Origin: a virus | DNA length: 34,042 nucleotides | IMG/VR virus record: IMGVR_UViG_3300022188_000032 | Coordinates: 1 to 34,042 of that record | Direction: 5' to 3' (one strand) | Shown here: positions 7,245 to 33,193 of the stretch, piece after piece | Layout: each line of letters starts with the position of its first letter | How positions within the stretch are numbered: position 1 is the first letter of the stretch | The notes under the pieces: generated by a model | Told to the model about the DNA's origin: nothing | Databases searched by the model: none | What the model saw: the letters and a program-made list of their open reading frames with translations, nothing else | Made by a program: the position numbers and the translations under genes

Positions 7245-7260
7245 TTAAAAGGAGATATAT

Positions 7261-16582: not shown

Positions 16583-16595
16583 AGGATATATTTCA

Positions 16596-16964
16596 ATGGT
16601 TTATACTATATATAATACAAATACTGGTAGGATTCATGGGTATGGTTCTTGTTCTTTTGAAAATGAAATCCATTTAGATGAAAATGAGAGTTATATTTTA
16701 GAATCAAAAGGTGATGGTAATCTATTTTATGTTTTAGATGGCAAAATAACAGGGTGCACACCCTCCCCCATTTCTTTTGATATTTCAGAAGGATTGATAA
16801 CGATTAACAAGATACCTGAACATTCAAATATTATGATAAATGGTTGTAGTATTGAATGGGATGATGAGCTTGAGCTTGAACATGATGGTTCTTATAATAT
16901 CAATATTAGGATAGATTCAATAGAACATTTTCCAATAGAGAAGGTGATTTTATGCGAAGAATAA
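16596..16964 (+). CDS. Small structural protein of unknown function after J
   Basis: A 122-residue, acidic, probably all-beta protein (YTIYNTNTGRIHGYGSCSF, YILESKGDGNLFYVLDGKI, GLITINKIPEHSNIMINGCS). It has a clear AAAGGA Shine-Dalgarno. It lies between the J-like gene and the first large fibre-like gene, so it is probably an accessory tail tip or fibre-associated protein. I do not recognise a named family; short proteins of this kind are common next to tail tip genes of lambda-like phages. Its stop overlaps the start of a 42-residue gene. Confidence 0.7.
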   Translation: MVYTIYNTNTGRIHGYGSCSFENEIHLDENESYILESKGDGNLFYVLDGKITGCTPSPISFDISEGLITINKIPEHSNIMINGCSIEWDDELELEHDGSYNINIRIDSIEHFPIEKVILCEE

Positions 16965-17080
16965 AAATAAATGATTTACCTTTCAAAAAAGTTAAAAATG
17001 AAATGAAACAAATAAAAAAAGAACTGGATGAACTTAAAAAACAAATTCAAAAGGTGAAAGATGTCAATAACAATAAGTAA
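16952..17080 (+). CDS. 42-residue Lys-rich coiled-coil protein
   Basis: This short gene begins at an ATG preceded by AAGGTGA, overlaps the previous gene by 13 bases and overlaps the next start (17061) by 20 bases, so it fills the gap exactly. The product (MRRIKINDLPFKKVKNEMKQ...) has a short N-terminal strand, then a regular heptad-like helix with alternating Lys and hydrophobic residues up to KKQIQKVKDV. The tight packing and good ribosome site argue that it is real. It could be a small trimerisation or chaperone peptide for the fibre-like protein that follows; that role is inference. Confidence 0.65.
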   Translation: MRRIKINDLPFKKVKNEMKQIKKELDELKKQIQKVKDVNNNK

Positions 17081-20000
17081 TTCAACCACTTTCAATGATA
17101 CAACCAGTTATGTTTCTGTATGTGCCTTAAGTGAAACCAAAATTGTAATTGCTTATAGAGATATAAGTGGTTCAAATTATGGCACTGCAATTGTAGGTGA
17201 TATAGCAAATAATATTATAACATTTGGTAGCGAACAAGTGTTTAGTATGGATGAAGTCCAACATGTTAATATTGTAAGCATATCAAGCACTAAATTTGTT
17301 ATAGTATATCAAAATAAGGCTTCTTGGGATTACAAGGGGACATCAATAAGTGGCACAGTTTCAGGCACTACAATAACATATGGTAGTGAAACATTTTTTA
17401 ACAATGCAAGCACAAATGCAATTGATTCAATAAAGTTAGATACAGATAAGTTTGTTGTTTCATTCAAAGACCAGGGGAGTGGTTCCGTTGGTAAATGTGT
17501 TATAGGGACATTATCAGGGACTTCAATTTCTTATGGTTCAGAATACACTTTTAGTAATTCATACATACATTATTCAAGTGTATGTGCCTTAGATACAACA
17601 CATTTTGTTGTATGTGCTAAAGACTTTGATGGGTCTGTATATCATGGTGTTAGTTTTGTTGGAACAGTATCAGGCACTTCAATTTCTTATGGTTCAGAAC
17701 AAGAATTTTACTCAAGTGATGATATAGAATACATTCATACGTGTGCCTTAGATTCAAACCATATTGCAATTATATTTAGAAAAGGGAGTCAGTATGGTTC
17801 TTGTTATATTGGAACTGTTTCAGGAAATACAATTTCATATGGAACCAGAAATGACTATAAAACAACTTCAATAAATTCTCAAAGCCTTTGTATGATGGAT
17901 TCTGAAACCATCATAGTTGCATTCAATGATGTTGCTGGTTCTGGTTATGTTTCTGTTTTAAAAGGAACTGTTAGTGGTAATAGTGTTTCTTTTGACGATG
18001 AAACAGTAGTTGATGAAACAAGTATTTCAAGTAGTGGTGTGATAGCCAGAAATGCAGATAGTTTTATAGTAGGGTTCTCACCTCAAACAACTGGAAAAGC
18101 AAGAGTGGGAACCATTGTAGGTGTTTTACCACCAACTAAATATGTTTTTAATGCAGATACTACAGAATATATTCAAACAACAAGACAAAGTGATACCAAA
18201 TTTATAATAAACTATGCTCATGATGGATATGGAAAATGTAAAGTTGCTGATATTTCAAGTGGTGTGATAACATATGCTGACCAATACATTTTTAACTTAG
18301 AAACAACAAGTGAGATAAAAACAGATTTTCTTGATACCACTTCAAGTGTTTGTGTGTGGCTGGATGATAACACCAGTTATTTATCATGTAATATTCAAAT
18401 AAGAACTGATGATGACCTGATTTGTGGTATGCGGCAGTATATAAGCACTGTAAATACAGATAATATAAGTGTTTGTTCAATGGGTTCTGCCGCCTTTGTT
18501 TCTGCATATAATATTGGTGCTGGTAAAGCAATATATTGTCAAAGGGTTGAATACACTATAAATAAAGGGGTTGTTGCTGAATTTTCATCAAATGATGTTT
18601 CTGCAGTAGATGTTTGTATGATAAGCGAAACAAAATTTCTTGTTGCATACAAAGATACTACAGGCAAATGTAAAATAGGTGATATTTCAGGCACTTCAAT
18701 AACATTTGGTTCTGAATATATTTTTAACAATGCATCAACTGATAACATAGTTTGTGTGTCATATGATTCAACTCATGTGGTGATTGGTTTCAAAGATAGT
18801 GATACATATGGCAAAAGTATTATTTGTTCTGTAAGTGGGACTGTGGTTTCTTTTGCATCAAAACAAGCATTTACTGATGTCAAAATAGATAATCTATCAA
18901 TTGATATCTTAGATTCAACATATTTTTTATTTTCATATTCAAGAGATACATCAAATGAAGGGTATAACACTTTAGGGACAATTTCATCAAATGTAATAAC
19001 ATATGGTGATGAAAAAGTATTCAATGAGGGGACTACTGGTTGCACTTCAACATGCGTATTTGACTATAATACATTCATAACAGCATTTAAAGATTGTGAT
19101 GTTTCTGACCATGGGACATGCACCCAGTATGATATAGATGGTCTCGTAAAACTCTGTTTGATAGATGAAACAATTGATTTTGATACCTCAACTGGAATCA
19201 ATAATATATTTGATATGACTGATGATTTGAATTTAACTGATATTGTCAATATGTTATGTCAAGTGTTGTTAACAGATGATTTAAATTTAACAGATAGCAT
19301 GTTGAAAAGTTTTTATATAAGCCTTACTGAAAGTTTCAACTTCAATGAAATTATTGATACCTTACAAGAAATAAATGTGAGTGAAAATATCAATTATACT
19401 GATTTGATAGAAAATACCAATTATATCAATATGTTTGATGGTTTTGAGTTGAATGAAAGCATCAATTTTACCATTTCTTTGATAGTCTCCGAAGTCATTA
19501 ATGCAATTGATACCATACAAACAAGCAATCAAGTCTTGTTAAGTGAACTAATTACTTTTAGTGCTGAAGTAAAACAGTTAAGATATATTTTACTAAATGA
19601 CTCAATTGAGTTGATTAGTAATATTGGTTTTGATAGCATTATCAATATATTAGATACCATTGGATTACTTGATAACACTACAATAAGTAATATATTTGGT
19701 ATTTTGGATGTCTTGGGTGTTAGTGATACAATTGAAAGAAAAATATTTATAACTGTAATTGATAATATTGGTTTACTCGATACATTTGTTAATAACACAA
19801 TTCTGGAAATTCAGGATACTATAAATTCAAATGACCATATTTGCAATATTTTAACAAATAGTGATTTATTTGATAGTTTGGGTGTTAATGATAACATTGA
19901 TTTGAATATGCTTCTGAACATCCAGGATGCCATGCTGTTGGTAGATAATTTACACTTGAGACCTATCATAAGAGTTGATGAAATAATTGCACTGTCATCT

Positions 20001-20639
20001 GTTTTAAGCATATCAAAGAGGTTTTTAAAATTTATCAATGAGATAATAACATTTGGTTGTAATATTGGTGTGGGACAGATAATTAATGTGCTTGAGGTTG
20101 TTGATTTTCAAGATGTTAGTAATGTTTTAGTAAAAATTGTATTAGATGAACAAATAGTCTATAGTGATTTATGTAATATTATAAATAGTTTAGAGTTGGT
20201 TGATGGGTTTAATATTACAGAAGAACTAAGAACAAGTGTGCTGATGTCTTTGTCAGATGGATTGGGTATTAGTGAAATTCTGAATATATTTAAGTCAATC
20301 ATAGTATCTGATAATTTAAATACAAATACAAACATAGAAATTTCAAATGATTTCAATATATTAGAAAATATTTTGTTAAACGATAACTTTAATCTGCAAA
20401 ATATCATAAATATCATAGATAATATAGATACAAATGATACAACTTCATTTGAAAGATTAATAAACATCACGGATGGTATTACAAGTAATGAGAATATAAC
20501 TTTATCTAATGTATTCAGTATGTTAGAAGATATTATATTGAACTCTGATTTAGATTTAACTGATGAAACAGGTAAATTTATAATGCTGTTTGAAGGTAAA
20601 TTGAAACAATTATATTTTAGTGCGAGGGAGGACGTATAG
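17061..20639 (+). CDS. Large fibre-like protein: two seven-bladed propellers on an 18-residue-repeat shaft
   Basis: The 1192-residue product has two parts. Residues 1 to about 690 contain 14 repeats of about 50 residues, each with a pattern like SVCALDTTHFVVCAKD followed by GTVSGTSISYGSE. Fourteen copies fit two consecutive seven-bladed beta-propellers, with a break near residues 350-360 (VLPPTKY). From about 700 to 1172 there are about 25 tandem repeats of almost strict 18-residue length (for example DLNLTDIVNMLCQVLLTD), with hydrophobics at fixed positions and a D/E at positions 6 and 18. The extreme C-terminus (KLKQLYFSAREDV) resembles that of the protein at 21080. The position after J and the architecture suggest a receptor-binding side or tip fibre. 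Its AAGGTGA Shine-Dalgarno lies within the preceding small gene. Confidence 0.8.
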   Translation: MSITISNSTTFNDTTSYVSVCALSETKIVIAYRDISGSNYGTAIVGDIANNIITFGSEQVFSMDEVQHVNIVSISSTKFVIVYQNKASWDYKGTSISGTVSGTTITYGSETFFNNASTNAIDSIKLDTDKFVVSFKDQGSGSVGKCVIGTLSGTSISYGSEYTFSNSYIHYSSVCALDTTHFVVCAKDFDGSVYHGVSFVGTVSGTSISYGSEQEFYSSDDIEYIHTCALDSNHIAIIFRKGSQYGSCYIGTVSGNTISYGTRNDYKTTSINSQSLCMMDSETIIVAFNDVAGSGYVSVLKGTVSGNSVSFDDETVVDETSISSSGVIARNADSFIVGFSPQTTGKARVGTIVGVLPPTKYVFNADTTEYIQTTRQSDTKFIINYAHDGYGKCKVADISSGVITYADQYIFNLETTSEIKTDFLDTTSSVCVWLDDNTSYLSCNIQIRTDDDLICGMRQYISTVNTDNISVCSMGSAAFVSAYNIGAGKAIYCQRVEYTINKGVVAEFSSNDVSAVDVCMISETKFLVAYKDTTGKCKIGDISGTSITFGSEYIFNNASTDNIVCVSYDSTHVVIGFKDSDTYGKSIICSVSGTVVSFASKQAFTDVKIDNLSIDILDSTYFLFSYSRDTSNEGYNTLGTISSNVITYGDEKVFNEGTTGCTSTCVFDYNTFITAFKDCDVSDHGTCTQYDIDGLVKLCLIDETIDFDTSTGINNIFDMTDDLNLTDIVNMLCQVLLTDDLNLTDSMLKSFYISLTESFNFNEIIDTLQEINVSENINYTDLIENTNYINMFDGFELNESINFTISLIVSEVINAIDTIQTSNQVLLSELITFSAEVKQLRYILLNDSIELISNIGFDSIINILDTIGLLDNTTISNIFGILDVLGVSDTIERKIFITVIDNIGLLDTFVNNTILEIQDTINSNDHICNILTNSDLFDSLGVNDNIDLNMLLNIQDAMLLVDNLHLRPIIRVDEIIALSSVLSISKRFLKFINEIITFGCNIGVGQIINVLEVVDFQDVSNVLVKIVLDEQIVYSDLCNIINSLELVDGFNITEELRTSVLMSLSDGLGISEILNIFKSIIVSDNLNTNTNIEISNDFNILENILLNDNFNLQNIINIIDNIDTNDTTSFERLINITDGITSNENITLSNVFSMLEDIILNSDLDLTDETGKFIMLFEGKLKQLYFSAREDV
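19150..20575 (+). repeat. Diverged 54-bp (18-codon) repeats encoding the shaft of the first fibre-like protein
   Basis: Split every 18 codons, the translation gives aligned units such as TIGLLDNTTISNIFGILD, VLGVSDTIERKIFITVID, NIGLLDTFVNNTILEIQD and GLGISEILNIFKSIIVSD. Only two or three units depart from 18 residues (19 or 20). The DNA copies have diverged, unlike those in the second fibre-like gene, so this array looks older. Confidence 0.85.
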
Positions 20640-21073
20640 TGAATAAAAGTGAATTAATAGCTGATATTACAAGTCAATATCACAGTGTTGGTCAACCATT
20701 TGAAATGAAAACAAGTTGTATGTCTGGATTTGATAACAGTGAGAACATCAAAATGTATAACATATCAACTTATACAACGGAAAATGATATCATGAGTCAA
20801 GGTTCTGTAAATTTTTATGTTAGTGATGAAGGATTGGGGACAGAAGAAGCTTATTATACCTTAAATTACAATGTGTTTGAAGGCAAGTTAAAAGATAAAA
20901 TGGCTTCAATGATATCTGATGAAACAATTTTAACTGGTTCTGTGGAGTCATTTGATGAAGCAGGAAAATATGGTATTATACAAGGCTTTGTTTTAAGTGA
21001 TAACAGAGTGAGTGAAGTAAAATACTTTGTATACACCGTTAATGATGTTTTAACAGCAAACCTGATGTCATAA
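20639..21073 (+). CDS. Unknown protein between the two fibre-like genes
   Basis: A 144-residue protein starting at GTG 20639, which overlaps the TAG of the preceding gene; a strong GGGAGGACG Shine-Dalgarno supports this start. The sequence looks mixed alpha/beta (SELIADITSQYHSVGQPFEMKTS..., GSVNFYVSDEGLGTEEAYYTLNY..., GIIQGFVLSDNRVSEVKYFVYT). No known family is evident. Lying between two proteins that share a shaft and C-terminal motif, it may be a fibre adaptor, connector or assembly factor; that is inferred from position only. Confidence 0.7.
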   Translation: MNKSELIADITSQYHSVGQPFEMKTSCMSGFDNSENIKMYNISTYTTENDIMSQGSVNFYVSDEGLGTEEAYYTLNYNVFEGKLKDKMASMISDETILTGSVESFDEAGKYGIIQGFVLSDNRVSEVKYFVYTVNDVLTANLMS

Positions 21074-21079
21074 GGTGAT

Positions 21080-23533
21080 TTGATGACCTTTTCAATAGAA
21101 CAAGAAGTTTTTCCGAATGATTTAAACGCAAATGATTTGTTTGGGTATAATGTAGATATCAATAATGGCACTATGATTGTTGGTGCTTATCAACATAATA
21201 CAGATGGTATAAGTGATAAGGGTGCTGTATATGTGTTTGTTGAAGATGAAAATCACGACTGGACTTTTCAACAAAAATTATCAAGTAGTTATTCAACTGC
21301 AAATCAAGTCATAGGTAAATATTGTAGAATATCAGGTGATTATATTGTTTCTTGTAATTATGAAACTTGGGATGGTTCAACTGATGGTGTCATTGTTTGG
21401 AAAAGAACAGGAGCAACATGGACATATTCACAACTTATAATGTGGAATTCTGATAAATTAAGTGATGCAGTTGCTATTGATGGGGGATATGTTGTTATCA
21501 GTGCTAAAAACAGAACCATTAATAGTTTGGGTGCTGTGGGTGATGCCTTAGTATATAAACATAATGGAACATCATTCATATATCAATCACAATTACCCAC
21601 CACTGACATAGTTGCAGATAGACAGTATGGAAAGTGGGTTGATATTTCTGGGGAAAGGGCTGCTGTGGGTTGCACTTATTGGGATGGTATACATAAGGGG
21701 CATGTCCATATTTTCAAAAAAAATGGAACCACATGGACTCTGGAACAGGTTATCCATAACCCTGACAGTAATATTCAGACATTTGGTGAGTCGTTTTGTA
21801 TTGATGGTGAAACCATTGTTATTGGTGCTAAGAGGTCAACTGTAAATGGTATTATAAAAGCAGGTGCTGCTTTAGTTTACAAACTGGTTGATGGCACATG
21901 GACGTATCAACAAACACTCACAGAAACAACCACAAGAGAAAATAATTATTTTGGTGTTTCAGTTCATATAAGAGGGGATAAATGTTTGGTCGCAACACCT
22001 TATGATAAGGATGTTGGTGGTTCTTCCCAGGGTGGTGCTGTAAATGTTTATAAATTAGAAGGCGAAACATGGGTGTTAAAACAAAGAATATTTGACCCTG
22101 GAACACCTTCAGCAGATTATTTTGGTTATTCTTGTGCAATTACAGATGGTTATAATGGGTCTACAAATATCAATATTGGTGCTGCTTACGAGGATTCACA
22201 TGGTGGTAATGCTGGAACCAGTTATATCTATAGAGAGAGTGAGATTACATTACCAGATACCATATTATCAAGCACAGATACAATAATTGATAACATAATG
22301 AGTATGTTAGAGTCATTAAACCTAACAGACAATACAATCTTAACAAATATAGCAAAAATTGTAGCTGATGTTTTGAATCTAACAGATACCCTTTCTTCTT
22401 TTAGTAATATATTCAATATGTTAGACACCATAACAACAAACAGCACCATCAATATCAATAACATTTTTAACATACTGGAATCATTACATTTAACAGATAT
22501 AATAAACATAACTGGACTTACAAGTGTATTTGACACACTTAATATTACAGATAATTTAACAATTTCAAATATTTTCAGTATGTTAGATGCCATATCATTT
22601 GCTGATATAGTTGATGTTATAAAAGAGATTGTAAAATATATAACAGATGCATTAAATCTAACAGATAATTTAACATTATCTAATATATTCAGTATGTTAG
22701 AAGAAATTAATCTAACAGATGATATCACTATCAATAACATTTTTAACATACTGGAATCATTACATTTAACAGATATAATAAACAGCAGCACCATAATGAG
22801 TGTATTAGAATCACTTAATATTACAGATACAACAAATATAAGTAATATTTTCAACATGTTAGACAGTATATCTCTTGTTGATTTATTTGATATAAATTAT
22901 CTGATATCACTTGTTGATAGCTTAAATTTTGATGATTCTACAACAATTTCAAACATTTTTAACATACTGGAATCATTACATTTAACAGAAGATACAACAA
23001 TTTCAAACATTTTAAATGTGTTAGATGTCATATCATTTGCTGATATCACAAATGTTATAAAAGAAATTGTAAAATATATCACAGATACCTTGAATTTAAC
23101 AAGTGATATCAATATAAGTAATATTTTCAACATGTTAGATGATATCAATATCAATGATATCATTGATATTATAATTGATGTTATATTCAAACATATTTCT
23201 GAAAGTTTAAACCTGACTGATGATACAAGTATAAGTGGTATTTTAAATGTGTTAGATAATATTTCTCTTGCTGACACCACAACAATAAACAATATATTTT
23301 CAATTTTAGATGAAATTTCTACCACAGATATACTAAATATAATTAGTAGTTTAAATATAAATGATTTTATATACAACACAGAGGATATTGAGATTCAAAA
23401 TGCGCTGAATCTGTTTGATAGCTTGAGTATAAATGATTTACTATCACTGAACCCAGATGATATAATTATAAGAAGCATATTTAGTGCGGATATCAAAGAT
23501 TTCTACTTTAGTGCAAAAATTAGAGGTGATTAA
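21080..23533 (+). CDS. Second fibre-like protein: FG-GAP-like seven-bladed propeller on an 18-residue-repeat shaft
   Basis: The first 390 of 817 residues contain seven FG-GAP/integrin-like blades (LFGYNVDINNGTMIVGAY..., YFGVSVHIRGDKCLVATPY...), most ending in a strand like VYKLVDGTWTYQQTL. This is a different propeller family from that of the first fibre-like protein. Residues about 395-797 are about 22 repeats of 18 residues (SLNITDTTNISNIFNMLD type), with occasional 20-21-residue units containing EIVKYITD. The C-terminus (DIKDFYFSAKIRGD) matches the other fibre. Many 54-bp DNA units are nearly identical, so the shaft has expanded recently. The likely role is a receptor-binding or accessory fibre. 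The start has an AAGGTGAT Shine-Dalgarno. Confidence 0.8.
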   Translation: MMTFSIEQEVFPNDLNANDLFGYNVDINNGTMIVGAYQHNTDGISDKGAVYVFVEDENHDWTFQQKLSSSYSTANQVIGKYCRISGDYIVSCNYETWDGSTDGVIVWKRTGATWTYSQLIMWNSDKLSDAVAIDGGYVVISAKNRTINSLGAVGDALVYKHNGTSFIYQSQLPTTDIVADRQYGKWVDISGERAAVGCTYWDGIHKGHVHIFKKNGTTWTLEQVIHNPDSNIQTFGESFCIDGETIVIGAKRSTVNGIIKAGAALVYKLVDGTWTYQQTLTETTTRENNYFGVSVHIRGDKCLVATPYDKDVGGSSQGGAVNVYKLEGETWVLKQRIFDPGTPSADYFGYSCAITDGYNGSTNINIGAAYEDSHGGNAGTSYIYRESEITLPDTILSSTDTIIDNIMSMLESLNLTDNTILTNIAKIVADVLNLTDTLSSFSNIFNMLDTITTNSTININNIFNILESLHLTDIINITGLTSVFDTLNITDNLTISNIFSMLDAISFADIVDVIKEIVKYITDALNLTDNLTLSNIFSMLEEINLTDDITINNIFNILESLHLTDIINSSTIMSVLESLNITDTTNISNIFNMLDSISLVDLFDINYLISLVDSLNFDDSTTISNIFNILESLHLTEDTTISNILNVLDVISFADITNVIKEIVKYITDTLNLTSDINISNIFNMLDDININDIIDIIIDVIFKHISESLNLTDDTSISGILNVLDNISLADTTTINNIFSILDEISTTDILNIISSLNINDFIYNTEDIEIQNALNLFDSLSINDLLSLNPDDIIIRSIFSADIKDFYFSAKIRGD
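22264..23470 (+). repeat. Recently expanded 54-bp repeats encoding the second fibre shaft
   Basis: A 36-base stretch (ACATTTTTAACATACTGG...) occurs identically at 22461, 22737 and 22953. The last two are 216 bases apart, exactly four units; the first two are 276 apart, five units plus two extra codons. A longer module containing CATATCATTTGCTGATAT recurs at 22591 and 23029 (438 bases apart). Higher-order duplication of multi-unit blocks is the simplest explanation. The array keeps the reading frame throughout. Confidence 0.9.
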
Positions 23534-23671
23534 ATGAAAGAAAAATTCGGAATGAACGATCAAATTTCAATTGAACGATCAAATGAAACAAGTAATAAAG
23601 ATAAAGTGCTGATTAATTTATTATTACAACTTTTAAAAATAACTTTAACAAAAAAATTAAAAAAAGGATAA
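23534..23671 (+). CDS. 45-residue small protein
   Basis: This short gene starts 1 base after the stop of the second fibre-like gene, with AGAGGTGAT as Shine-Dalgarno, and stops 6 bases before the next start. The product has a polar N-terminal half and a C-terminal amphipathic-to-hydrophobic segment (VLINLLLQLLKITLT) followed by a Lys cluster. That could be a short helix or a single membrane-associated segment. No family is recognised. Its fit in the operon and its ribosome site support it as real. Confidence 0.55.
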   Translation: MKEKFGMNDQISIERSNETSNKDKVLINLLLQLLKITLTKKLKKG

Positions 23672-23677
23672 AATATT

Positions 23678-24160
23678 ATGAATACAGATTTAAAACTTTG
23701 GAAAACAGAATGGAAGATTGAAAAATATGCAAGTGAAATAGATTTTAAAAATGGTGTTTGTTTTGAAACAAACACAATTTCTGGAAATATTGGTTTGAAT
23801 GAGGGTCTGCAACTTGTAGGTGATTTAATGATCGGGGAAAGTGGAACCCCTTATAACAATACAAATGCTTATATTGGAGTCGGTGAAAGCACTACAGCAG
23901 CAGCGGCCACTGATACTGGTTTGTTGGGTTCTACGTTAACTTATAAAGGCATGGAGTCAGGATACCCATCAAGAACAGACCAGACGATCACTTTTAGGAG
24001 TGAGTTCGGTGCGAACGATGCAAATTATAGTTGGCAGGAATTTTCTTTAAGTAATTCTGATTCAAACTCCGGCGTCAATATTAACCGCAAAACGTCAAAC
24101 CAGGGATTGAAAGTAATTGAGCAAATATGGACGCTAAACTTAACAATTACACTTAGTTAA
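23678..24160 (+). CDS. Conserved phage structural-type protein of unknown function
   Basis: A 160-residue beta-rich protein with a layout I have seen in phage structural genes near tail fibres: a GENE-start region, then NAYIGVGESTTAAAATDTGLLG, MESGYPSRTDQTITFRSEFGANDANYSWQEFSLSNS and a final NRKTSNQGLKVIEQIWTLNLTITLS. The terminal pattern (Lys/W/L alternation) suggests a strand that completes a beta-sandwich. Codon use in the middle is less AT-rich than in its neighbours (GCAGCAGCGGCC, GGCGTC), hinting at a different origin. A decoration or tail-tip accessory role is possible; no biochemical function can be assigned. Confidence 0.7.
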   Translation: MNTDLKLWKTEWKIEKYASEIDFKNGVCFETNTISGNIGLNEGLQLVGDLMIGESGTPYNNTNAYIGVGESTTAAAATDTGLLGSTLTYKGMESGYPSRTDQTITFRSEFGANDANYSWQEFSLSNSDSNSGVNINRKTSNQGLKVIEQIWTLNLTITLS

Positions 24161-24173
24161 GGGGGTTTTTGAA

Positions 24174-24377
24174 ATGGATGTTTCAACAGAACTTATCATA
24201 AAGAGCCTGGATACCATTAACAAAAAACTTGATCGGTTGAGTGATAACTTGCGAGATTGCCAGAAAGTGAGATTACAGTGTGTTAAAGAGAATTCCAAAA
24301 CTTTTTTAGAAAAGAAAACATTCTTTGTTGCTGTTGGTCTTGTTTTCACTGCCTTAACAACTGTATTGTTTATTTAA
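24174..24377 (+). CDS. Small coiled-coil membrane protein (XhlA/holin-like candidate)
   Basis: The 67-residue product has an amphipathic helix with heptad pattern (ELIIKSLDTINKKLDRLSDNLRDCQK) followed by one C-terminal membrane segment (TFFVAVGLVFTALTTVLFI, about 49-67). This layout resembles the haemolysin XhlA group, found in phage lysis modules. It is the last rightward gene of the late operon, a common place for lysis genes. No endolysin lies beside it, so a lysis role is plausible but not shown. A GGGGG-rich Shine-Dalgarno precedes the ATG. Confidence 0.65.
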   Translation: MDVSTELIIKSLDTINKKLDRLSDNLRDCQKVRLQCVKENSKTFLEKKTFFVAVGLVFTALTTVLFI

Positions 24378-24384
24378 AATAATC

Positions 24385-24413
24385 TTGAAAATAATCTTGA
24401 AACACTATATACT
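24385..24413 (+). promoter_or_regulatory. Sigma70-like promoter of the candidate small RNA
   Basis: TTGAAA (24385-24390), a 17-base spacer and TATACT (24408-24413). The expected start is A24420, at the foot of a hairpin. No open reading frame with a ribosome site follows before the terminator-like hairpin, so the product would be non-coding. Confidence 0.65.
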
Positions 24414-24419
24414 ATCAAT

Positions 24420-24516
24420 ATGAAGTAAGAAATTGCTTCAGCCTGTTGTTTTATCTCCTGGGATGCCATTCTGGGTAAGGGAATTGTCCTTTACTTGGAG
24501 TGGCATTTTTATTTTT
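24420..24516 (+). ncRNA. Candidate small RNA with anti-Shine-Dalgarno segment complementary to the early leaders
   Basis: The predicted transcript is about 95 bases. Its 5' hairpin pairs 24421-24428 with 24433-24440 around a GAAA tetraloop (8 bp, one G-U). A single-stranded stretch of about 22 bases follows (24441-24462). The 3' structure is an outer stem ATGCCATTC/GAGTGGCAT (24463-24471 with 24498-24506) and an inner 8-bp stem (GTAAGGGA/TCCTTTAC) with an ATTG loop, then a U-rich tail. The single-stranded part, TGTTGTTTTATCTCCT (24444-24459), can pair with AGGGGATAA plus CAACA of the early leaders, covering Shine-Dalgarno and start codon with a 2-base bulge. It could equally be just the late-operon terminator with an upstream hairpin; the dedicated promoter favours an RNA gene. 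Confidence 0.5.
24463..24516 (+). terminator. Intrinsic terminator of the late operon / small RNA
   Basis: A bipartite hairpin: outer 9-bp stem (24463-24471 with 24498-24506, one G-U), inner 8-bp stem (24474-24481 with 24486-24493, one G-U), then TTTTTATTTTT. It lies between the last rightward late gene and the convergent leftward nuclease gene, where a terminator is needed. Confidence 0.8.
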
Positions 24517-24562
24517 AACTAATCACAAATCAAGTCATAACAATCCATTTATACCTTTTAAT

Positions 24563-25114
24563 TTATACAAAAACACCAGCCTGTTTCAAACCAAGAAGTC
24601 TCTTTATAACATCAGGCGTTACAGCATCAAAAAATTCTTTCATGTTAAAAACATATATCCCTTCATCCTTTGTTTGAACCATAAAATAATTTAATGTCTC
24701 AACATTGTTTGATAGCATATTAAAAGTATCACAACCAATAACAACTATAGTTGGTTGTCTATCCTGTTTATAAATCAACAAAGGTTCCTTACCCCCTTTC
24801 AAAGCATCATCCTTGCATTGTTCCCAAAATTTCAAAAGTTCATTTGATTTAGAGTTCTTTTTAAAAAACTTAAAAAAATTGAATGATGGATACCCACACT
24901 TAATCTCAATCGAAAACAGGTCTGTTAAAAATTCACTTTCCCCTTTCAAAGCAACAATATCACCAGTAATATCTGGGTTCTGTATCCCACCAATACCCCC
25001 AGAAGATGGACTTCTCCAATACATATAAGGCTTCTCCTTGCCTGATACCCATTTTGTTAAATATTTTGCAATATCCCTTTCAAACCCACTACCCTTTCCT
25101 TTCCCCTTAGCCAT
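24563..25114 (-). CDS. PD-(D/E)XK-type nuclease, the only leftward gene
   Basis: The 183-residue product starts MAKGKGKGSGFERDIAKYL. The ATG at 25114 is chosen because GAGGGAG lies just upstream; a longer frame to 25159 has no ribosome site. A PD-(D/E)XK core is visible: Glu12 in the first helix, Asp52 in NPDITGDIVAL, then Glu70-x-Lys72 in FSIEIKCGYP. This resembles Holliday-junction resolvase/restriction-like phage nucleases, which act in recombination, packaging-related DNA processing or host DNA breakdown. It is transcribed leftward from the intergenic region at 25115-25282, divergent from the early promoter array and convergent with the late operon. Confidence 0.8.
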   Translation of the reverse strand: MAKGKGKGSGFERDIAKYLTKWVSGKEKPYMYWRSPSSGGIGGIQNPDITGDIVALKGESEFLTDLFSIEIKCGYPSFNFFKFFKKNSKSNELLKFWEQCKDDALKGGKEPLLIYKQDRQPTIVVIGCDTFNMLSNNVETLNYFMVQTKDEGIYVFNMKEFFDAVTPDVIKRLLGLKQAGVFV

Positions 25115-25282
25115 TTTATTCTCCCTCAAACGTATGATGGGTGTGCTCAACACACACAATCACACCCAGTTAAACTATCTTTTCTTTCCCATATCATGAC
25201 ATACAATTCAAATAGAACCCCTTAGAATGGATATATCTATAAGTTATTGATATGATTAGATAAAATTAATTTAAAATAGTGC

Positions 25283-25311
25283 TTGCATATCAAAATGCCT
25301 TATGTTATAAT
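25283..25311 (+). promoter_or_regulatory. Early promoter copy 1
   Basis: TTGCAT, 17-base spacer, TATAAT with extended -10 (TGT before it), then GCTTTTA. Unlike the other copies it has no start codon within 70 bases; the next gene begins at 25449. It is either a tandem promoter for that gene or the remains of a cassette whose gene was lost. Confidence 0.8.
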
Positions 25312-25383
25312 GCTTTTATTCAATTGAGTTCATATCTATATATCTTTCTTTCTAAAAAAATTAACAAATATATGAAATAAAGC

Positions 25384-25412
25384 TTGCAATCAAAAACACC
25401 ATATGGTATAAT
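25384..25412 (+). promoter_or_regulatory. Early promoter copy 2
   Basis: TTGCAA, 17-base spacer, TATAAT with extended -10 (TGG). The spacer end plus -10 forms the palindrome ACCATATGGT. It is followed by the shared leader GCTTTTAAACAATCAAAC and AACAAAGGGGATAACAAA, then ATG at 25449. Confidence 0.85.
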
Positions 25413-25448
25413 GCTTTTAAACAATCAAACAACAAAGGGGATAACAAA

Positions 25449-26144
25449 ATGCCAAACAAAGAAATAGCTTACTACAACAACATCATGAAAGCAAGATTAG
25501 AAATAAGTGAAGAAGAAGGAGGATATTATTACTGGGATGTAGTTGCTGATTTGATAGGAGATGGCCTGTTGGTTCATTTTGATTCTGATGAAGAACATCC
25601 AGACAAAGTAGAGTATACAGAGGAAGCTGATTGTTTTTCAGTTGAATATACTTGGAAGCCAGGATATTTAAAATGCACAGAATTATTAATGGATGAAATT
25701 GATGAAGAAGAGAAGCAAGAAGAGAAAAAAAGAAAAATACTATTTGACTTCAAAAACACCATATGTTATAATGCTTTTAAATCAAATCAAACACAACCAA
25801 CAACAAAAGGGGATATCAAAATGAAAAATAAAAAACAATTAAAAAAACAAATGAAAAAAGTTGGGGTATTTAATTTTATAGATGTTTTTACCGGAGAAAA
25901 AAGAACAACTACTAAAAAATGCCAGAAAGCAACACAAGGTAAGAAAATCATTGTTAGCAATAAATTGGAAATATATGTTGATAATAAAGGATATAAGGCA
26001 GTGCCCACTGATAAATTTTACTTCTTTGATACAGATACAGAAAGAGACCAAATATTAAAAGGGTTAGCTTTTGTTGTTGAAAATAAATACTTGTTTTGGA
26101 ATGAGAACGATCAAGAATATATTATCCCAGGATTAAGAAAATAG
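25449..26144 (+). CDS. Unknown acidic early protein, read through an internal promoter into a second gene
   Basis: The open frame encodes 231 residues. The first ~99 (MPNKEIAYYNNIMKARLEIS...) are acidic, ending in an EEEKQEEKKRK cluster; no family recognised. The frame then runs without a stop through a full early promoter and leader (25744-25820), whose translation is DFKNTICYNAFKSNQTQ and PTTKGDIK. It continues in frame into a sequence that has its own ATG (25821) and Shine-Dalgarno. Thus the upstream gene seems to have lost its stop and become fused to the next cassette, giving a long 231-residue protein plus a separate 107-residue protein from the internal promoter. A frameshift or sequencing change near 25735 is an alternative. 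Confidence 0.7.
   Translation: MPNKEIAYYNNIMKARLEISEEEGGYYYWDVVADLIGDGLLVHFDSDEEHPDKVEYTEEADCFSVEYTWKPGYLKCTELLMDEIDEEEKQEEKKRKILFDFKNTICYNAFKSNQTQPTTKGDIKMKNKKQLKKQMKKVGVFNFIDVFTGEKRTTTKKCQKATQGKKIIVSNKLEIYVDNKGYKAVPTDKFYFFDTDTERDQILKGLAFVVENKYLFWNENDQEYIIPGLRK
25744..25772 (+). promoter_or_regulatory. Early promoter copy 3 (inside an open frame)
   Basis: TTGACT, 17-base spacer (nearly the same as copy 2), TATAAT with extended -10 (TGT), then GCTTTTAAATC and a leader ending AAAAGGGGATATCAAA before ATG 25821. It is wholly contained in the upstream open reading frame. Confidence 0.85.
25821..26144 (+). CDS. Unknown basic early protein (107 residues), internal start
   Basis: Start at ATG 25821, preceded by an early promoter copy and AAAGGGGAT Shine-Dalgarno; the frame is shared with the upstream gene. 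The N-terminus is Lys-rich (MKNKKQLKKQMKKVGVFNF), followed by a beta-rich part (KIIVSNKLEIYVDNKGYKAV) and a C-terminal ENKYLFWNENDQEYIIPGL. The family is unknown. It is probably expressed at once after infection, as are the other promoter-cassette genes. Its TAG stop lies one base before the -35 region of the next promoter. Confidence 0.7.
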   Translation: MKNKKQLKKQMKKVGVFNFIDVFTGEKRTTTKKCQKATQGKKIIVSNKLEIYVDNKGYKAVPTDKFYFFDTDTERDQILKGLAFVVENKYLFWNENDQEYIIPGLRK

Positions 26145-26145
26145 T

Positions 26146-26174
26146 TTGCAATCAAATCTGCCTTATGGTATAAT
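26146..26174 (+). promoter_or_regulatory. Early promoter copy 4
   Basis: TTGCAA, 17-base spacer, TATAAT with extended -10 (TGG), directly after the stop codon of the previous gene. The leader GCTTTTAAACAATCAAACAA then CAAAGGGGATAACAAC leads to ATG 26211. Confidence 0.85.
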
Positions 26175-26210
26175 GCTTTTAAACAATCAAACAACAAAGG
26201 GGATAACAAC

Positions 26211-26690
26211 ATGGAAGCAGTATCAGTTAACTTATTTTTAGCTCAAGGAAAACATAATGGTTTACGTATAGCCGAGATAACTAACTGGTCTGGTAAGGCC
26301 ATAGCAGCACCAAGGTCAGAAATATCAAAAGATGAATTCAACAAACAAGGAGTGTATATTTTAACAGGTATTGACCCAGAAACAAATAAAAAAACAATTT
26401 ATATAGGGGAATCTGAAAATATATCAAATCATTTAGATAATGTTCTTTTAAATGAGGATTCTTGGAATAATATTACTGCATTTGTTTCAAAATATGAGAA
26501 TTTTACACATTCAGAATTAAAATATCTCAAGGAAAATCTGGTTCAATTAGTTAATAATGACAATTCAACTGTTATGAATGTAGTAAACAATAATGTTGAA
26601 ATATCAGAATCCTCTGCAAGTATAATGGATGGTTATCTTGAAAAATGTTTATTAATATTACCTGTTTTAGGTATTGTAGATTTTATTTAA
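26211..26690 (+). CDS. GIY-YIG domain protein (possibly with a degenerate active site)
   Basis: The 159-residue product begins VNLFLAQGKHNGLRIAEITNWSG, then APRSEI, GVYILTG (about 47-53) and IYIGESENI (63-71), and ends LEKCLLILPVLGI. This order matches the stand-alone GIY-YIG proteins that have a short N-terminal LFL.G...GLR.....NW.G segment. GIY-YIG enzymes cut DNA using the two Tyr, an Arg after YIG and a later Glu. Here the usual Arg after YIGE is not apparent (NISNHLDN) and the YLE.RL helix reads YLKENL, so activity may be lost or altered. It is expressed from its own early promoter; a role in attacking host DNA or blocking a host nuclease is possible but inferred. Confidence 0.75.
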   Translation: MEAVSVNLFLAQGKHNGLRIAEITNWSGKAIAAPRSEISKDEFNKQGVYILTGIDPETNKKTIYIGESENISNHLDNVLLNEDSWNNITAFVSKYENFTHSELKYLKENLVQLVNNDNSTVMNVVNNNVEISESSASIMDGYLEKCLLILPVLGIVDFI

Positions 26691-26698
26691 ATAAATGC

Positions 26699-26727
26699 TT
26701 GACCCTATATGATGAAAATGGTATACT
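26699..26727 (+). promoter_or_regulatory. Early promoter copy 5
   Basis: TTGACC, 17-base spacer ending GAAAATGG, TATACT with extended -10 (TGG), then GCCTTTAAACAATCAAAC and the shared Shine-Dalgarno leader to ATG 26764. This copy and copy 6 form a subtype with the spacer CTATATGATGAAAATGG. Confidence 0.85.
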
Positions 26728-26763
26728 GCCTTTAAACAATCAAACAACAAAGGGGATAACAAC

Positions 26764-27147
26764 ATGGTCAGACATTATAAAACAGATGACAAAATACTTT
26801 GTAATACAAAAGCAAAAAAGATTGTATTTACAGAAATAAAAGTAGACGTAACTTGTAAGAAATGTTTGAAGAAACTTTCACCAACTCCAAAGAAAGTTAA
26901 AGAGAAAAAACCATTTCAAGATATATTTACACCAGATTGTATTACAGAAGAACTATTGAAATTTATACCAATCAAACAAGGGGATAAAATACTTGAGCCC
27001 ACAGCAGGCACAGGAAACATGGCAGAAGTATTGTTAAAACAAGTAAGTGCCCAGGGCATCAGTATAAACTTGACATGTAATGAAATTCAAAAGAAACATT
27101 CAGATGTATTAAAAAAAAGATTATCAAAATATGGTAAAATAGTTTGA
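26764..27147 (+). CDS. Cys-motif N-terminal module fused to a truncated adenine-methyltransferase domain
   Basis: Residues 1-38 (MVRHYKTDDKILCNTKAKK..., VTCKKCLKKL) carry three Cys that may form a small zinc-binding module, and are nearly identical to the start of the next gene. Residues about 55-127 match the beginning of an N6-adenine methyltransferase: FTPDCITEELLKFIP, then SAM motif I LEPTAGTGN (about 77-85) and NLTCNEIQKK. The catalytic NPPY/NPPF motif is absent because the gene ends at residue 127; the TGA stop lies inside the -35 hexamer of the next promoter. It is therefore a methyltransferase fragment, perhaps a SAM-binding decoy or simply decaying. Confidence 0.75.
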   Translation: MVRHYKTDDKILCNTKAKKIVFTEIKVDVTCKKCLKKLSPTPKKVKEKKPFQDIFTPDCITEELLKFIPIKQGDKILEPTAGTGNMAEVLLKQVSAQGISINLTCNEIQKKHSDVLKKRLSKYGKIV

Positions 27148-27172
27148 CTCTATATGATGAAAATGGTATACT
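27144..27172 (+). promoter_or_regulatory. Early promoter copy 6
   Basis: TTGACT, 17-base spacer CTATATGATGAAAATGG (identical to copy 5), TATACT. Its -35 hexamer supplies the TGA stop of the preceding gene. The leader with AAAGGGGATAATAAC leads to ATG 27210. Confidence 0.85.
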
Positions 27173-27209
27173 GCTTTTAAATCAATCAAACAACAAAGGG
27201 GATAATAAC

Positions 27210-27638
27210 ATGGTTAGACACTTTAAAGAAAATGATAAAATACTTTGTAATACCAAAGGAAAAAAGATTGTCTTTACAGAAATAAAAGCAGACGTAACTT
27301 GTAAGAAATGTTTTAAGAAATTAAATGAGTCAAAGCATTTCAGATATTTCAAAGAGTTCTTAAAAGGAGATTTGATGGGTCAAACAAAGGGATTTTGGGC
27401 AATGAAGCAATGCAAATCCCATGATGAAGCACCAGTTAGAGCATATATTACAGGTTCAAAGGATGCTTACTACTACTGCTGGTATATCAAAAACAGGCCA
27501 GAAATGAGAAAAAAGATAAAAGTATCAAAATTTGCATTAGAATTTTGCCAGAATGTAGATGATGACCCAGAAGTAGCCAAGAATATTACAGACTCAAAGG
27601 ATAGGATGATATATGAAGCTACTAAAAAAAGATGTTAG
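27210..27638 (+). CDS. Unknown early protein sharing the Cys-motif N-terminal module
   Basis: Start at ATG 27210, after the shared leader; an upstream in-frame ATG (27144 frame) lies inside the promoter and is rejected. Residues 1-38 (MVRHFKENDKILCNTKGKK..., VTCKKCFKKL) duplicate the previous gene's N-terminus. The rest (SKHFRYFKEFLKG, FWAMKQCKSHDEAPVRAYIT, DAYYYCWYIKNRPEMRKKI, LEFCQNVDDDPEV) is unique and I cannot place it. A strong terminator follows. It may be a host-takeover protein, by analogy with other early phage genes; that is inference. Confidence 0.75.
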   Translation: MVRHFKENDKILCNTKGKKIVFTEIKADVTCKKCFKKLNESKHFRYFKEFLKGDLMGQTKGFWAMKQCKSHDEAPVRAYITGSKDAYYYCWYIKNRPEMRKKIKVSKFALEFCQNVDDDPEVAKNITDSKDRMIYEATKKRC

Positions 27639-27652
27639 ATAAACACTATATT

Positions 27653-27692
27653 AAAAAAAAAGGGGGTATCAGAAATGGTATCCCTTTTTTTT
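27653..27692. terminator. Strong bidirectional intrinsic terminator after the early cassette genes
   Basis: A run of nine A, then GGGGTATCA, a GAAA loop, TGGTATCCC and eight T. The stem is nine pairs (two G-U) flanked by A/T that extend it. It separates the cassette block from promoter copy 7. Confidence 0.9.
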
Positions 27693-27748
27693 GTTTAAAA
27701 AAAGAATTCAATCTATATCATAAACACCTTAAAAAGATTGAATATTAC

Positions 27749-27777
27749 TTGATTTTCAAAATGCTATATGTTATAAT
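27749..27777 (+). promoter_or_regulatory. Early promoter copy 7
   Basis: TTGATT, 17-base spacer, TATAAT with extended -10 (TGT), then GCTTTTTATGG. Its leader differs from the others in the middle but ends with the shared ACAAAGGGGATATCAG before ATG 27830. Confidence 0.85.
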
Positions 27778-27829
27778 GCTTTTTATGGTTGTCAATTAAG
27801 ATATACCATATAAACAAAGGGGATATCAG

Positions 27830-28222
27830 ATGAATGAAACAATATCAGAACTGTATATAAAATATGATATAGACAATATTTTATTAGAAACAGAGTTAAA
27901 AAAAATTATTAAACACACACTGGATTTTAATATGCTAAGAGCAAATAATAACTATGAACTTTCACAAATAAACATCATCCATGATAAAAAAAGTGGGGAG
28001 AAGCTTATATTTTATCAAAGCAAAGGAATAAAGACAATAACTGCTATCAAAGAAGGATACTTGGCACAAGATGGGGAATTAATTTCAATTAAGAAATTGA
28101 TGAATATACATCAATTAAGATTAGAATTCTTTACAAATATATGTGAAATGTTAAATCAGTTATATCAAATGAGAATTGATGGATATAACAATAACAATAT
28201 AAATAATAATAAGAGACTATAA
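27830..28222 (+). CDS. Unknown early protein before the putative origin
   Basis: A 130-residue protein with its own early-type promoter and AAAGGGGAT Shine-Dalgarno. The N-terminal half is helical (ISELYIKYDIDNILLETELKKIIKHTLDF), the centre is a beta segment (LSQINIIHDKKSGEKLIFYQ), the C-terminal helix LRLEFFTNICEMLNQLYQM follows, and it ends in an Asn-rich tail (NNNNINNN). No family recognised. The place next to the candidate origin might suggest a replication or control role, but nothing in the sequence shows it. Confidence 0.7.
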   Translation: MNETISELYIKYDIDNILLETELKKIIKHTLDFNMLRANNNYELSQINIIHDKKSGEKLIFYQSKGIKTITAIKEGYLAQDGELISIKKLMNIHQLRLEFFTNICEMLNQLYQMRIDGYNNNNINNNKRL

Positions 28223-28241
28223 GTCCTTTATTACTTTATTA

Positions 28242-28277
28242 ACACACATGGAGACCCCCTTTATCCCCCATGTGTGT
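28242..28277. repeat. Hairpin 1 of the non-coding region
   Basis: Perfect 10-bp inverted repeat ACACACATGG/CCATGTGTGT. The loop is C-rich (two runs of five C around TTTAT) and complementary, with one mismatch over 15 bases, to the G-rich loop of hairpin 2. Confidence 0.9.
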
Positions 28278-28345
28278 ATTATAACTATTATAACTATCCT
28301 TATATTATTAAAGGACTAACCACTAAAGTAATTAAAAGTAATAAG

Positions 28346-28385
28346 GCAGTGTGTGGGGGATTAAGGGGGCACCTCCACACACTGC
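28346..28385. repeat. Hairpin 2 of the non-coding region
   Basis: Perfect 11-bp inverted repeat GCAGTGTGTGG/CCACACACTGC. The loop contains GGGGGATTAAGGGGG, the near-complement of the loop of hairpin 1; the two hairpins look like an inverted duplication. Confidence 0.9.
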
Positions 28386-28452
28386 ACTATAATGTATTAA
28401 GGGATTAAGGGTATAATACCATAATAACTATTATATCTTATAACTATCATTA

Positions 28453-28477
28453 ACACACCCTCCTTGGGGGAGTGTGT
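28453..28477. repeat. Hairpin 3 of the non-coding region
   Basis: ACACAC pairs with GTGTGT, extended after a C-A mismatch by CTCC with GGGG-type pairs, around a short TTG loop. It shares the ATTAACACACC entry with hairpin 1. Confidence 0.75.
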
Positions 28478-28567
28478 ATGACAATAAGTCTATAATACTA
28501 TAATACCATAATAACTATAAGAGTATTCTTATTAATAATAGAAAGAGCTACATAGAATTTCAATGTT

Positions 28568-28713: not shown

Positions 28714-28841
28714 AGTTAAATAGAGATTAAGAGTATATACTTATAAGTATTCTTAATGATATCAATGACTTATGACTTATATTGATTTAAATAATTATTA
28801 TACTATATAATATTAAGAAAACAAAAAGGAGATATATTAAC

Positions 28842-30278
28842 ATGATAACTTATTTACAATATTTTGATATCAATGGTGATAAGCAATACTTTGATAAGGA
28901 TGATTGTTCTCGGGTAATTGATAAAAATACAATAACAAATTATGTTATCAATACCTCAACACCAGAATTTGATAATTTGCTTGAAACTATTTTTAATAAT
29001 TTTTTTGTTGAATTTGAAAATTATAAGAAGACACAGAAAATTTATCTTAACTCAAGTAATGCTGTGAATGCAAAAAATAAATTGATTTATATTTCAGGTA
29101 TCACTGCGGTTATTCTATCAGCCTTAAAAACACATGTATTTAAAACAGAATTTGGTGTTTTTATAAAAAGGTCAACTCAAGCTTATAACAAAGAAATATT
29201 GGCATCAAAAACAAAGAAAAAGACAAAACCAACACCACTTTATGAAAAGGGTTTTAAATTCAATCAAATGATACCAGTATTTGATATTTTAAATGATTTA
29301 AAATACATCAAAATGTATGTTGGATATAACAATAAAATAACTGCAAATAAAAAGTTCACCTGTTTTTCAAATTATTACCCTACAGACAAATTAATTAAAC
29401 TATTTGAAAAAACACCTTTACCCAAGCTTATTACCCCAGTGGAATATACTAAACCATTGAAATCATTGATAAAAGAACCTGTAATTTTGAGAGATAATGA
29501 CAAAAATGATATGAAAATATTAAAATCATCTGAAATTGTTAAACCAATGATAAGGTTTTTAGATAAGTTCAACAAATTTATGAAAAAAGCAAAAATATCA
29601 CATGTTCAAAACATGTTTCAATGGAGACATAAAACAATAAGACTACATAGAGTGTTTAACAATTCAAGCTGGTCTAAAGGTGGTAGATTCTATGGTGCTT
29701 ATCAATCTGAAAATAACCAAAACAACCAACGGCAAAACATTCTTATCAATGGTGAAAAAACAATTGAAATAGATTATCAAAACATGCATCCCAGAATGTT
29801 ATATCATTTGAACGGTATCAATCCATTGGGTGATTTGTATTTGATTGACAGACCAGAAGACAGAAATCACTGGAAAATGTTTTTTCAATTTGCTTTGAAT
29901 TGCAAAAGTGAATTATTAACAGAAAATGCACTACATCAATATTTTTATAAGAAAAACAAACATAAAAAAGAAACTGATAAAATAGTAAATCCTTTTGAAA
30001 AGAGATTCGGTGATGACTGGAAAAAGGTTATTATATCACAGATGAAAACAAAATACAATGATATCAAACATGAGTTGTTTTGTAATGGGGGAAGTAAACT
30101 ACAGAATTTAGATAGTAAAATCATGAAAAACGCACTTGAACTACTCATGAAAGAGGGGATTTTTGCCATACCTTTTCATGATTCTATAGTGGTTCAAAAA
30201 AAACATGAAGTCAAGTTAAGGTCTATTATGATGGGTTGTTATTACGATACAATGAAATATTTTCCAGTTTTAAAGTAA
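28842..30278 (+). CDS. Replication protein with family-A DNA polymerase-like palm motifs
   Basis: The 478-residue product has a strong AAGGAGAT Shine-Dalgarno. The C-terminal half matches a phage/plasmid family with WSKGGRFYGAYQ (about 280-290), then INGEKTIEIDYQNMHPRML (motif A-like, Asp at about 311) and near the end GIFAIPFHDSIVV (motif C-like, His-Asp at about 446-447). The spacing of an acidic beta strand DYxxxHPR and a HDS strand recalls motifs A and C of family A polymerases, but a standard fingers O-helix (KxxxxxxxYG) and a 3'-5' exonuclease domain are not seen. The N-terminal 250 residues are unassigned and Lys-rich. Together with the following primase and helicase it probably copies or primes phage DNA; this is inferred. 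Confidence 0.65.
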   Translation: MITYLQYFDINGDKQYFDKDDCSRVIDKNTITNYVINTSTPEFDNLLETIFNNFFVEFENYKKTQKIYLNSSNAVNAKNKLIYISGITAVILSALKTHVFKTEFGVFIKRSTQAYNKEILASKTKKKTKPTPLYEKGFKFNQMIPVFDILNDLKYIKMYVGYNNKITANKKFTCFSNYYPTDKLIKLFEKTPLPKLITPVEYTKPLKSLIKEPVILRDNDKNDMKILKSSEIVKPMIRFLDKFNKFMKKAKISHVQNMFQWRHKTIRLHRVFNNSSWSKGGRFYGAYQSENNQNNQRQNILINGEKTIEIDYQNMHPRMLYHLNGINPLGDLYLIDRPEDRNHWKMFFQFALNCKSELLTENALHQYFYKKNKHKKETDKIVNPFEKRFGDDWKKVIISQMKTKYNDIKHELFCNGGSKLQNLDSKIMKNALELLMKEGIFAIPFHDSIVVQKKHEVKLRSIMMGCYYDTMKYFPVLK

Positions 30279-30327: not shown

Positions 30328-31317
30328 TTGAATTTTGACCCAAATATAATAGATGGGATGATGCATTCATATTGTAGTCTTGTTAACAAAACCCATAGTG
30401 GATATATGTCAAGATGTCCTTTTTGTGGTGGTTCAACAAAGCATAGTCATAGGTTATCTTTTGCGCTTAACTATCTGCCCAATGAAAATATATGGTTATA
30501 TGGTTGTTGGAGGGCAGGGTGCCTTGTGAAAGGTAATATCTATGGGTTGTATATGCATCTTTCTTCATGTAATTTCAAAACTGCTAAAAATGCACTTGAA
30601 ACCCAGAATACAATCATTTTAAAAAGAAAACAGCCTGTTGTTAAAAAAGGTAATATCAATGATACCTTTTTAAAAGAAGATTGCTTGTGCATTGATTCTG
30701 TTGACCTGGGTATCATACAAAAAAAGTATTACAGAAAGTTAATCCATTTTCTGATTGACAGAAAATTGATAGGTAATGAAATTTATATTGCTTATAAGGG
30801 AAAATATAAAAATAGAATCATTTTGCCAGTGTTTGAAAAGGGTAAGCTTGTATACTTCCAAGCCAGAGCACTTTCAAATGATGTTGAACCAAAATATAAG
30901 AACCCTTTTGTTGATAAGAAGGGTATACTTCCTTATGCTGAATCATTTCAGAGTGGTGGGTTGATTGTTATTACCGAAGGATTGATTGATGCCATGTCTT
31001 TTGAAGGTGCTGCTACAAGCTGTTTAGGGGCTTCTATCAGTAAAGAGTTTATTAAAAAATTATTAAAATTTAAACCATCTAAGATAGTGATAGTGTTAGA
31101 TAATGATGCTCCCGGTAAAAATAGTTTAATAAAAACAATAAATAGGCTGGTTTTTATTGATGATATAGTGTATTATTACACAATGCCTGATGAACACAAG
31201 CACATTAAAGATTTGAATGAATTGAAAATAAAAGCAAATAAAAAAATAACTGAAAATTTTATATTAAATAATATTAAAACAGGTTTTGAAATAAAAAAGG
31301 AGATATTATATGGATAA
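30328..31317 (+). CDS. DnaG-like primase: zinc ribbon plus TOPRIM
   Basis: Start placed at TTG 30328, because a full AAGGAGGTGA (30313-30322) lies 5 bases upstream; the in-frame ATG at 30292 has no comparable site. The N-terminal zinc ribbon has Cys30 and Cys33 in RCPFCGG and Cys60 and Cys65 in GCWRAGC. The TOPRIM domain shows Glu217 in VITEGLIDAMS, then Asp258 and Asp260 in VLDNDAPGK and a KDLNEL motif, the metal-binding residues of primases. At 329 residues it is compact, lacking a helicase domain, which is encoded by the next gene (overlap of 8 bases). It makes primers for the replication fork. Confidence 0.9.
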   Translation: MNFDPNIIDGMMHSYCSLVNKTHSGYMSRCPFCGGSTKHSHRLSFALNYLPNENIWLYGCWRAGCLVKGNIYGLYMHLSSCNFKTAKNALETQNTIILKRKQPVVKKGNINDTFLKEDCLCIDSVDLGIIQKKYYRKLIHFLIDRKLIGNEIYIAYKGKYKNRIILPVFEKGKLVYFQARALSNDVEPKYKNPFVDKKGILPYAESFQSGGLIVITEGLIDAMSFEGAATSCLGASISKEFIKKLLKFKPSKIVIVLDNDAPGKNSLIKTINRLVFIDDIVYYYTMPDEHKHIKDLNELKIKANKKITENFILNNIKTGFEIKKEILYG

Positions 31318-33016: not shown

Positions 33017-33028
33017 AGGAGATAACAA

Positions 33029-33193
33029 ATGACATATAATAATACAAAACAATATGTATTTAACAAACTAATTGATGTGATATTAAAAGAATTTAAGCAA
33101 GAACATTTTCATAGTGAGATTGTTGACAAAAAAATGGCCGAATTAAAAGCACTTAAACTGAATAGATTGAGTAAAAAAACACTAAATAAGTAA
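33029..33193 (+). CDS. 54-residue basic helical protein
   Basis: This short gene starts at ATG 33029 with a perfect AAAGGAGAT Shine-Dalgarno 5 bases upstream, 12 bases after the previous stop. The product is Lys-rich and helical (YVFNKLIDVILKEFKQEHF, then DKKMAELKALKLNRLSKKT). It closes the replication operon; a terminator follows. Family unknown. Confidence 0.65.
   Translation: MTYNNTKQYVFNKLIDVILKEFKQEHFHSEIVDKKMAELKALKLNRLSKKTLNK

Follow-up and report, generated by a model that had tools for sequence, protein, structure and literature searches.

The switch of phages from replication to assembly is governed mostly by transcription factors and, in T4, also by proteins that target early mRNAs. 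In bacteria, many small RNAs that carry a C-rich or CU-rich seed act chiefly on host mRNAs; the anti-Shine-Dalgarno (anti-SD) RNAs RsaE/RoxS and FsrA, which are chromosomal and have host metabolic targets, pair a single-stranded C- or CU-rich seed with SD regions. In T4, RegA and RegB repress or inactivate early mRNAs at their initiation regions, RegB by cutting the SD motif GGAG (PMC3014915). Phage-derived small RNAs, reviewed in 2025, include trans-acting RNAs that target the host or a single phage gene, and the sar and c4 RNAs, which block ant initiation (PMC12197685). The part of this review available to us describes no phage RNA aimed at an SD common to a class of the phage's own genes (PMC12197685). 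In Cluster K mycobacteriophages, Start-Associated Sequences, a repeated SD-containing motif by start codons, occur in the non-structural half only; the available portion of that report suggests an RNA or protein partner and leaves their function open (PMC3203893).

Here we investigated a candidate phage small RNA gene at positions 24420-24516 of the IMG/VR virus record IMGVR_UViG_3300022188_000032, an unclassified bacterial virus. The window we analysed is the whole record, 34,042 bases with a G+C content of 31%. Its structural genes run rightward from the terminase (353) to ~24377. A minus-strand gene encoding a PDDEXK/RusA-like endonuclease (24563-25114) opposes this block and adjoins the candidate RNA locus, and the right arm runs rightward from 25449, with small genes and a DnaB-like helicase (31310). 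Judged from gene content, the right-arm genes would be early and the structural genes late. Right after the last structural-side gene, we observed two tandem copies of AATAATCTTGAAA (24377-24403), which yield two TTGAAA hexamers, only the first of which is correctly spaced from TATACT.

The first-pass annotation of this locus described a sigma-70-like promoter, a 5' hairpin with a GAAA loop, an unpaired segment and a terminator-like double hairpin with a U tail, with no reading frame. The promoter-like site is present on the plus strand (24385..24413; TTGAAA at 24385-24390, a 17-nt spacer and TATACT at 24408-24413; 10 of 12 matches), with an expected transcript start at ~24420 and without the extended -10 TG found in the promoters of the right-arm array. 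However, in this A+T-rich genome such sites are no more frequent than in shuffled sequence (86 in 12000-24600 vs 83 +/- 10.5), and the promoter is therefore not significant alone; the plus strand has 0.94 sites per kb that match at 10 or more of the 12 positions. The 5' hairpin (UGAAGUAA-GAAA-UUGCUUCA, 24420..24440, plus strand) has 8 bp and a stability of -7.0 kcal/mol, equalled by only 56 of the 68,044 20-mers of the genome. It is followed by the unpaired stretch GCCUGUUGUUUUAUCUCCUG (24441..24460, plus strand), which carries the anti-SD octamer UAUCUCCU at 24452-24459. The predicted fold leaves ~18 bases open between the two hairpins; exposing them is predicted to cost 0.3-0.9 kcal/mol, and opening the segment 24444-24459 only 0.34 kcal/mol. 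Both the hairpin and the open segment thus agree with the initial description.

The terminator (24460..24516, plus strand) is strong and has a U tail, UUUUUAUUUUU, but folds as one 22-bp stem with a 4-nt loop rather than as a double hairpin. No other 51-mer of the window, on either strand, folds as stably. As a whole, the RNA 24418-24516 folds at -38.4 kcal/mol, compared with -20.4 +/- 2.9 for its shuffles (z -6.1), none of which equals it. The absence of a reading frame was upheld: the element holds no credible frame, its only ATG frame being the two-codon ATG AAG TAA at 24419. As anatomy, a small RNA gene with an anti-SD stretch predicted to be accessible is well supported. Several other identities were rejected. 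The element has no Rfam match at the gathering score (three weak sub-threshold matches were to unrelated families), and no tRNA or tmRNA was detected. It is not a bidirectional terminator, as a U tail is missing beyond the stem on the minus strand, nor an attenuator of the downstream gene, which sits on the opposite strand.

The position of the element also fits a plain intrinsic terminator with the 3' untranslated end of the structural operon, in which the promoter, hairpin and octamer would be fortuitous or mRNA-stabilising. The last structural-side gene stops at 24377, and the terminator stem starts 83 nt further on, ahead of the minus-strand PDDEXK/RusA-like gene, and the chance density of promoter-like sites is in line with this explanation. 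As no terminator-like site intervenes between the last structural-side gene and the element, the structural mRNA may itself end in this RNA. What a plain terminator would not account for is that the rare 5' hairpin and the promoter-like site stand in register upstream of it.

We next considered what the open stretch could pair with. The octamer UAUCUCCU is the complement of AGGAGATA, and the motif AGGRGATA lies no more than 20 nt ahead of 9 of the 13 right-arm starts, as opposed to 1 of the 23 structural-side starts (Fisher p 6.6e-5). The complement of this motif, TATCYCCT, occurs once on the plus strand, at 24452, exactly within the open stretch, which again speaks against a plain terminator. 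The AGGAGATA sites listed earlier for the 7252, 28825, 31300 and 33017 regions were recovered at 7250, 28827, 31298 and 33017, and all are SD sites. When leaders were ranked by net energy (raw pairing with the opening of the target charged), the best of all predicted targets, all on the plus strand, was the SD of gene 33029 (33017..33031, AGGAGATAACAAATG; net -14.0 kcal/mol), where nine successive bases, AGGAGATAA, are complementary to the RNA. Genes 26211 and 26764 of the array came next, followed by the SD of gene 28842 (28827..28844, AGGAGATATATTAACATG; net -12.1 kcal/mol), the structural-side gene 6355 (net -11.6 kcal/mol), the SD of the DnaB-like helicase gene 31310 (31298..31312, AGGAGATATTATATG; net -10.5 kcal/mol), gene 27210 and then the other three array leaders. 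This ranking points to the right-arm SD class, and not the shared array leader, as the predicted target set. The suspicion that specificity may be broader was also justified, since pairing for the structural-side genes 6355, 7261 and 10181 is on a par with that for several right-arm genes.

Mean net pairing was -9.5 for right-arm leaders vs -5.0 for structural leaders (Mann-Whitney p 0.0014). A 16S tail of the E. coli type, used as a control, gave no separation between them (-5.24 vs -5.23). Among 4,211 random 18-mers of the genome, from which the antisense of leaders was left out, two reached the right-arm mean, five the preference for the right arm and 11 the six-leader array mean. Composition-matched shuffles of the RNA segment are the more conservative control; out of 150, the corresponding counts were two, three and four. 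The octamer accounts for all of the pairing signal in these shuffle tests. Overall, the RNA is more complementary to the non-structural SD motif of the phage itself than expected by chance. That such shuffles reach the pairing score at a rate of 1-3% is nevertheless a point for the plain terminator. We regard a late-operon terminator with a fortuitous anti-SD as about as likely as the small RNA reading, and as a serious contender that falls somewhat short of an even chance.

The motif itself calls for further caution. Phages commonly use AGGAGATA as a strong SD (the leader of T7 gene 10, for instance, carries AAGGAGATATACAT), and a chance or host-directed anti-SD would therefore look alike. 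A trans-acting phage small RNA that works chiefly on host mRNAs, with the phage SD match as a by-product, would have the same anatomy, and AGGAG-type SDs are general; host mRNA is the target of known phage small RNAs such as PreS (PMC12197685). However, the octamer reaches past the core that is complementary to 16S and separates the right arm of the phage itself from the structural genes, and we consider a mainly host-directed RNA improbable.

The first-pass annotation had placed the target in the leader shared by an array of early genes, to which the RNA would bind through nine pairs and then, past 2 bulged nt of the small RNA, five further pairs, with CAACA, ending on the A of the start codon. 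The predicted hybrids show this very geometry at the SD and start of genes 26211 (26198..26213, AGGGGATAACAACATG; duplex -18.9, net -13.2 kcal/mol) and 26764 (26751..26766, AGGGGATAACAACATG; duplex -20.3, net -12.6 kcal/mol), both on the plus strand. Together with gene 27210 (27197..27212, plus strand, AGGGGATAATAACATG; duplex -19.1, net -9.3 kcal/mol), these are the three best raw duplexes among the 36 phage leaders. The SDs of gene 25449 (25436..25451; net -7.4 kcal/mol), internal start 25821 (25808..25823; net -8.8 kcal/mol) and gene 27830 (27818..27832; net -7.3 kcal/mol), also on the plus strand, are weaker predicted targets, as had been noted. The start regions of 26764 and 27210 are duplicated (90% identical over 144 nt), and the top duplexes of the array thus represent about two independent cases. 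In a wider scan against the leader of 26764 alone, the RNA segment took rank 14 among sites that do not overlap; its raw pairing with this one leader is thus not exceptional.

Of 150 flank shuffles that kept UAUCUCCU, 74 equalled or beat the pairing with the six-leader array, and 32 did so when only the three best leaders were considered. Since such shuffles pair equally well, the CAACA arm carries no signal, and we rejected the UGUUG/CAACA arm as a specificity determinant. CAACA is absent from three array members. The bases conserved across the array, AAACAAAGGGGATA, lie in and upstream of the SD, in part where the RNA would not pair, and the CAACA partner is variable, which argues against the shared array leader as the target. 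Compared with shuffled controls, then, the right-arm complementarity exceeds chance but the added CAACA arm does not.

The array conservation may have another origin, in which the shared right-arm SD and leader are the operator of a phage protein (RegA-like or RegB-like) or a duplicated strong ribosome-binding module, unrelated to 24420-24516. Indeed, the conservation continues 5' of the SD into bases that the RNA leaves unpaired, the array is built from duplicated promoter-leader modules, and in T4 RegA and RegB act on the initiation regions of early genes (PMC3014915). Yet no RegA or RegB homologue was matched among the window proteins scanned (two sets of ten, part of the window's set), and the complementary octamer would be left unexplained; we hold this explanation to be very improbable.

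The right arm showed several further features. Across 25269-27832, near-identical modules of promoter (TTGnnn-17-TATAAT with an extended TG) and leader (CAAACAACAAAGGGGATA) stand before each small right-arm gene, and a spare copy of the array promoter at ~25283-25313 has no gene directly after it. A 231-codon frame (25449-26144) crosses an internal array promoter and leader in frame into the 25821 start, with a KGDIKM junction, as if two array genes had fused with the internal promoter and SD retained. Genes 26764 and 27210 (26764-27320) have a CxxC-containing N-terminus in common and diverge afterwards. A second strong terminator-like hairpin lies within the array at 27650-27695 (an A-run, GGGGGUAUC/GGUAUCCC and a U-run; z -5.8); it is apparently bidirectional and was not picked up by a simple terminator scan. 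Finally, the intergenic region 28225-28480 contains three hairpins with GTGTG-type stems, where the first loop (CCCCCTTTATCCCCC, from ~28255) matches the reverse complement of the second (GGGGGATTAAGGGGG) at 14 of 15 positions; this may be a replication origin or a kissing-loop RNA.

DNA and protein searches of phage records, IMG/VR and species genomes, collections that may lack near records, recovered no relatives near enough to reveal the element. A search with the last large structural-side protein led to 44 loci, mostly at ~40% identity, and the terminase to eight loci at 33-45% identity, all too distant. Queries with the endonuclease, helicase, GIY-YIG-like and phrog_4756 proteins gave relatives that were too distant, or none. 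Downstream of 11 distant relatives of the 23678 protein, other genes follow and no similar element was found. The exact core had one match in other viruses, in a coding-looking stretch of a 210-kb contig, which we judged to be chance, and the leader sequence had 29 and 5 matches, none with a promoter-leader array.

Our tentative reading, which we consider possible though short of an even chance, is that the locus encodes a phage small RNA that occludes right-arm SD sites and arises from a promoter of its own, from the 3' end of the late mRNA, or both. Positions 24420-24516 would give rise to a stable RNA of ~97 nt, transcribed from its own sigma-70-like promoter and/or released from the structural-operon mRNA as its 3' end, given that no terminator-like site separates it from the last structural-side gene. 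The capping 5' hairpin and the very stable terminator would leave ~18 bases open, and the UAUCUCCU borne there would pair in trans with AGGRGATA, the SD of most right-arm (early, replication) genes. Such pairing would block 30S binding and lower right-arm translation, and repression might set in as structural-gene transcription climbs. The late shut-off proposed by the first-pass annotation lacks support: the promoter-like site is of the ordinary sigma-70 type, which leaves transcription running on from the structural operon upstream as the sole pointer to late timing. In all, the accessible anti-SD anatomy and the complementarity to the phage's own SDs survive from the proposed trans-acting shut-off RNA, but the array-leader target, the late timing and full specificity are not supported. 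The bolder idea, that a phage RNA regulates the whole non-structural class through the class-marking SD octamer AGGRGATA, as a counterpart of RegA/RegB shut-off, seems to us rather unlikely. If true, a single RNA keyed to a class-specific SD motif would be a simple alternative to protein switches and a concrete partner for the unexplained start-associated repeats of other phages; the idea gives testable predictions for one octamer.

Compared with described systems, the candidate resembles lambda PreS and VP882 VpdS, which, in the available part of the review, are phage-encoded, short and base-pairing, PreS having a similar length of ~88 nt (PMC12197685). PreS, however, targets host dnaN, whereas the predicted targets of the candidate are many of the phage's own non-structural genes (PMC12197685). 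P22 sar and P1/P7 c4 are likewise phage RNAs that block translation initiation on phage mRNA, c4 at the ribosome-binding site, but are described as acting on a single gene (ant), whereas the candidate would act on many genes in trans through a short octamer. With RsaE/RoxS and FsrA the candidate would share an open seed directed at SD regions, but it is phage-encoded, and it has no Rfam match. With RegA and RegB it would share the principle of one factor for many early mRNAs, although these are proteins and the candidate is an RNA. The Start-Associated Sequences differ in sequence (GGGATAGGAGCCC), and the available portion of that report describes no complementary phage RNA (PMC3203893). If our reading holds, the novelty may lie in one RNA aimed at the SD class of the phage's own non-structural genes.
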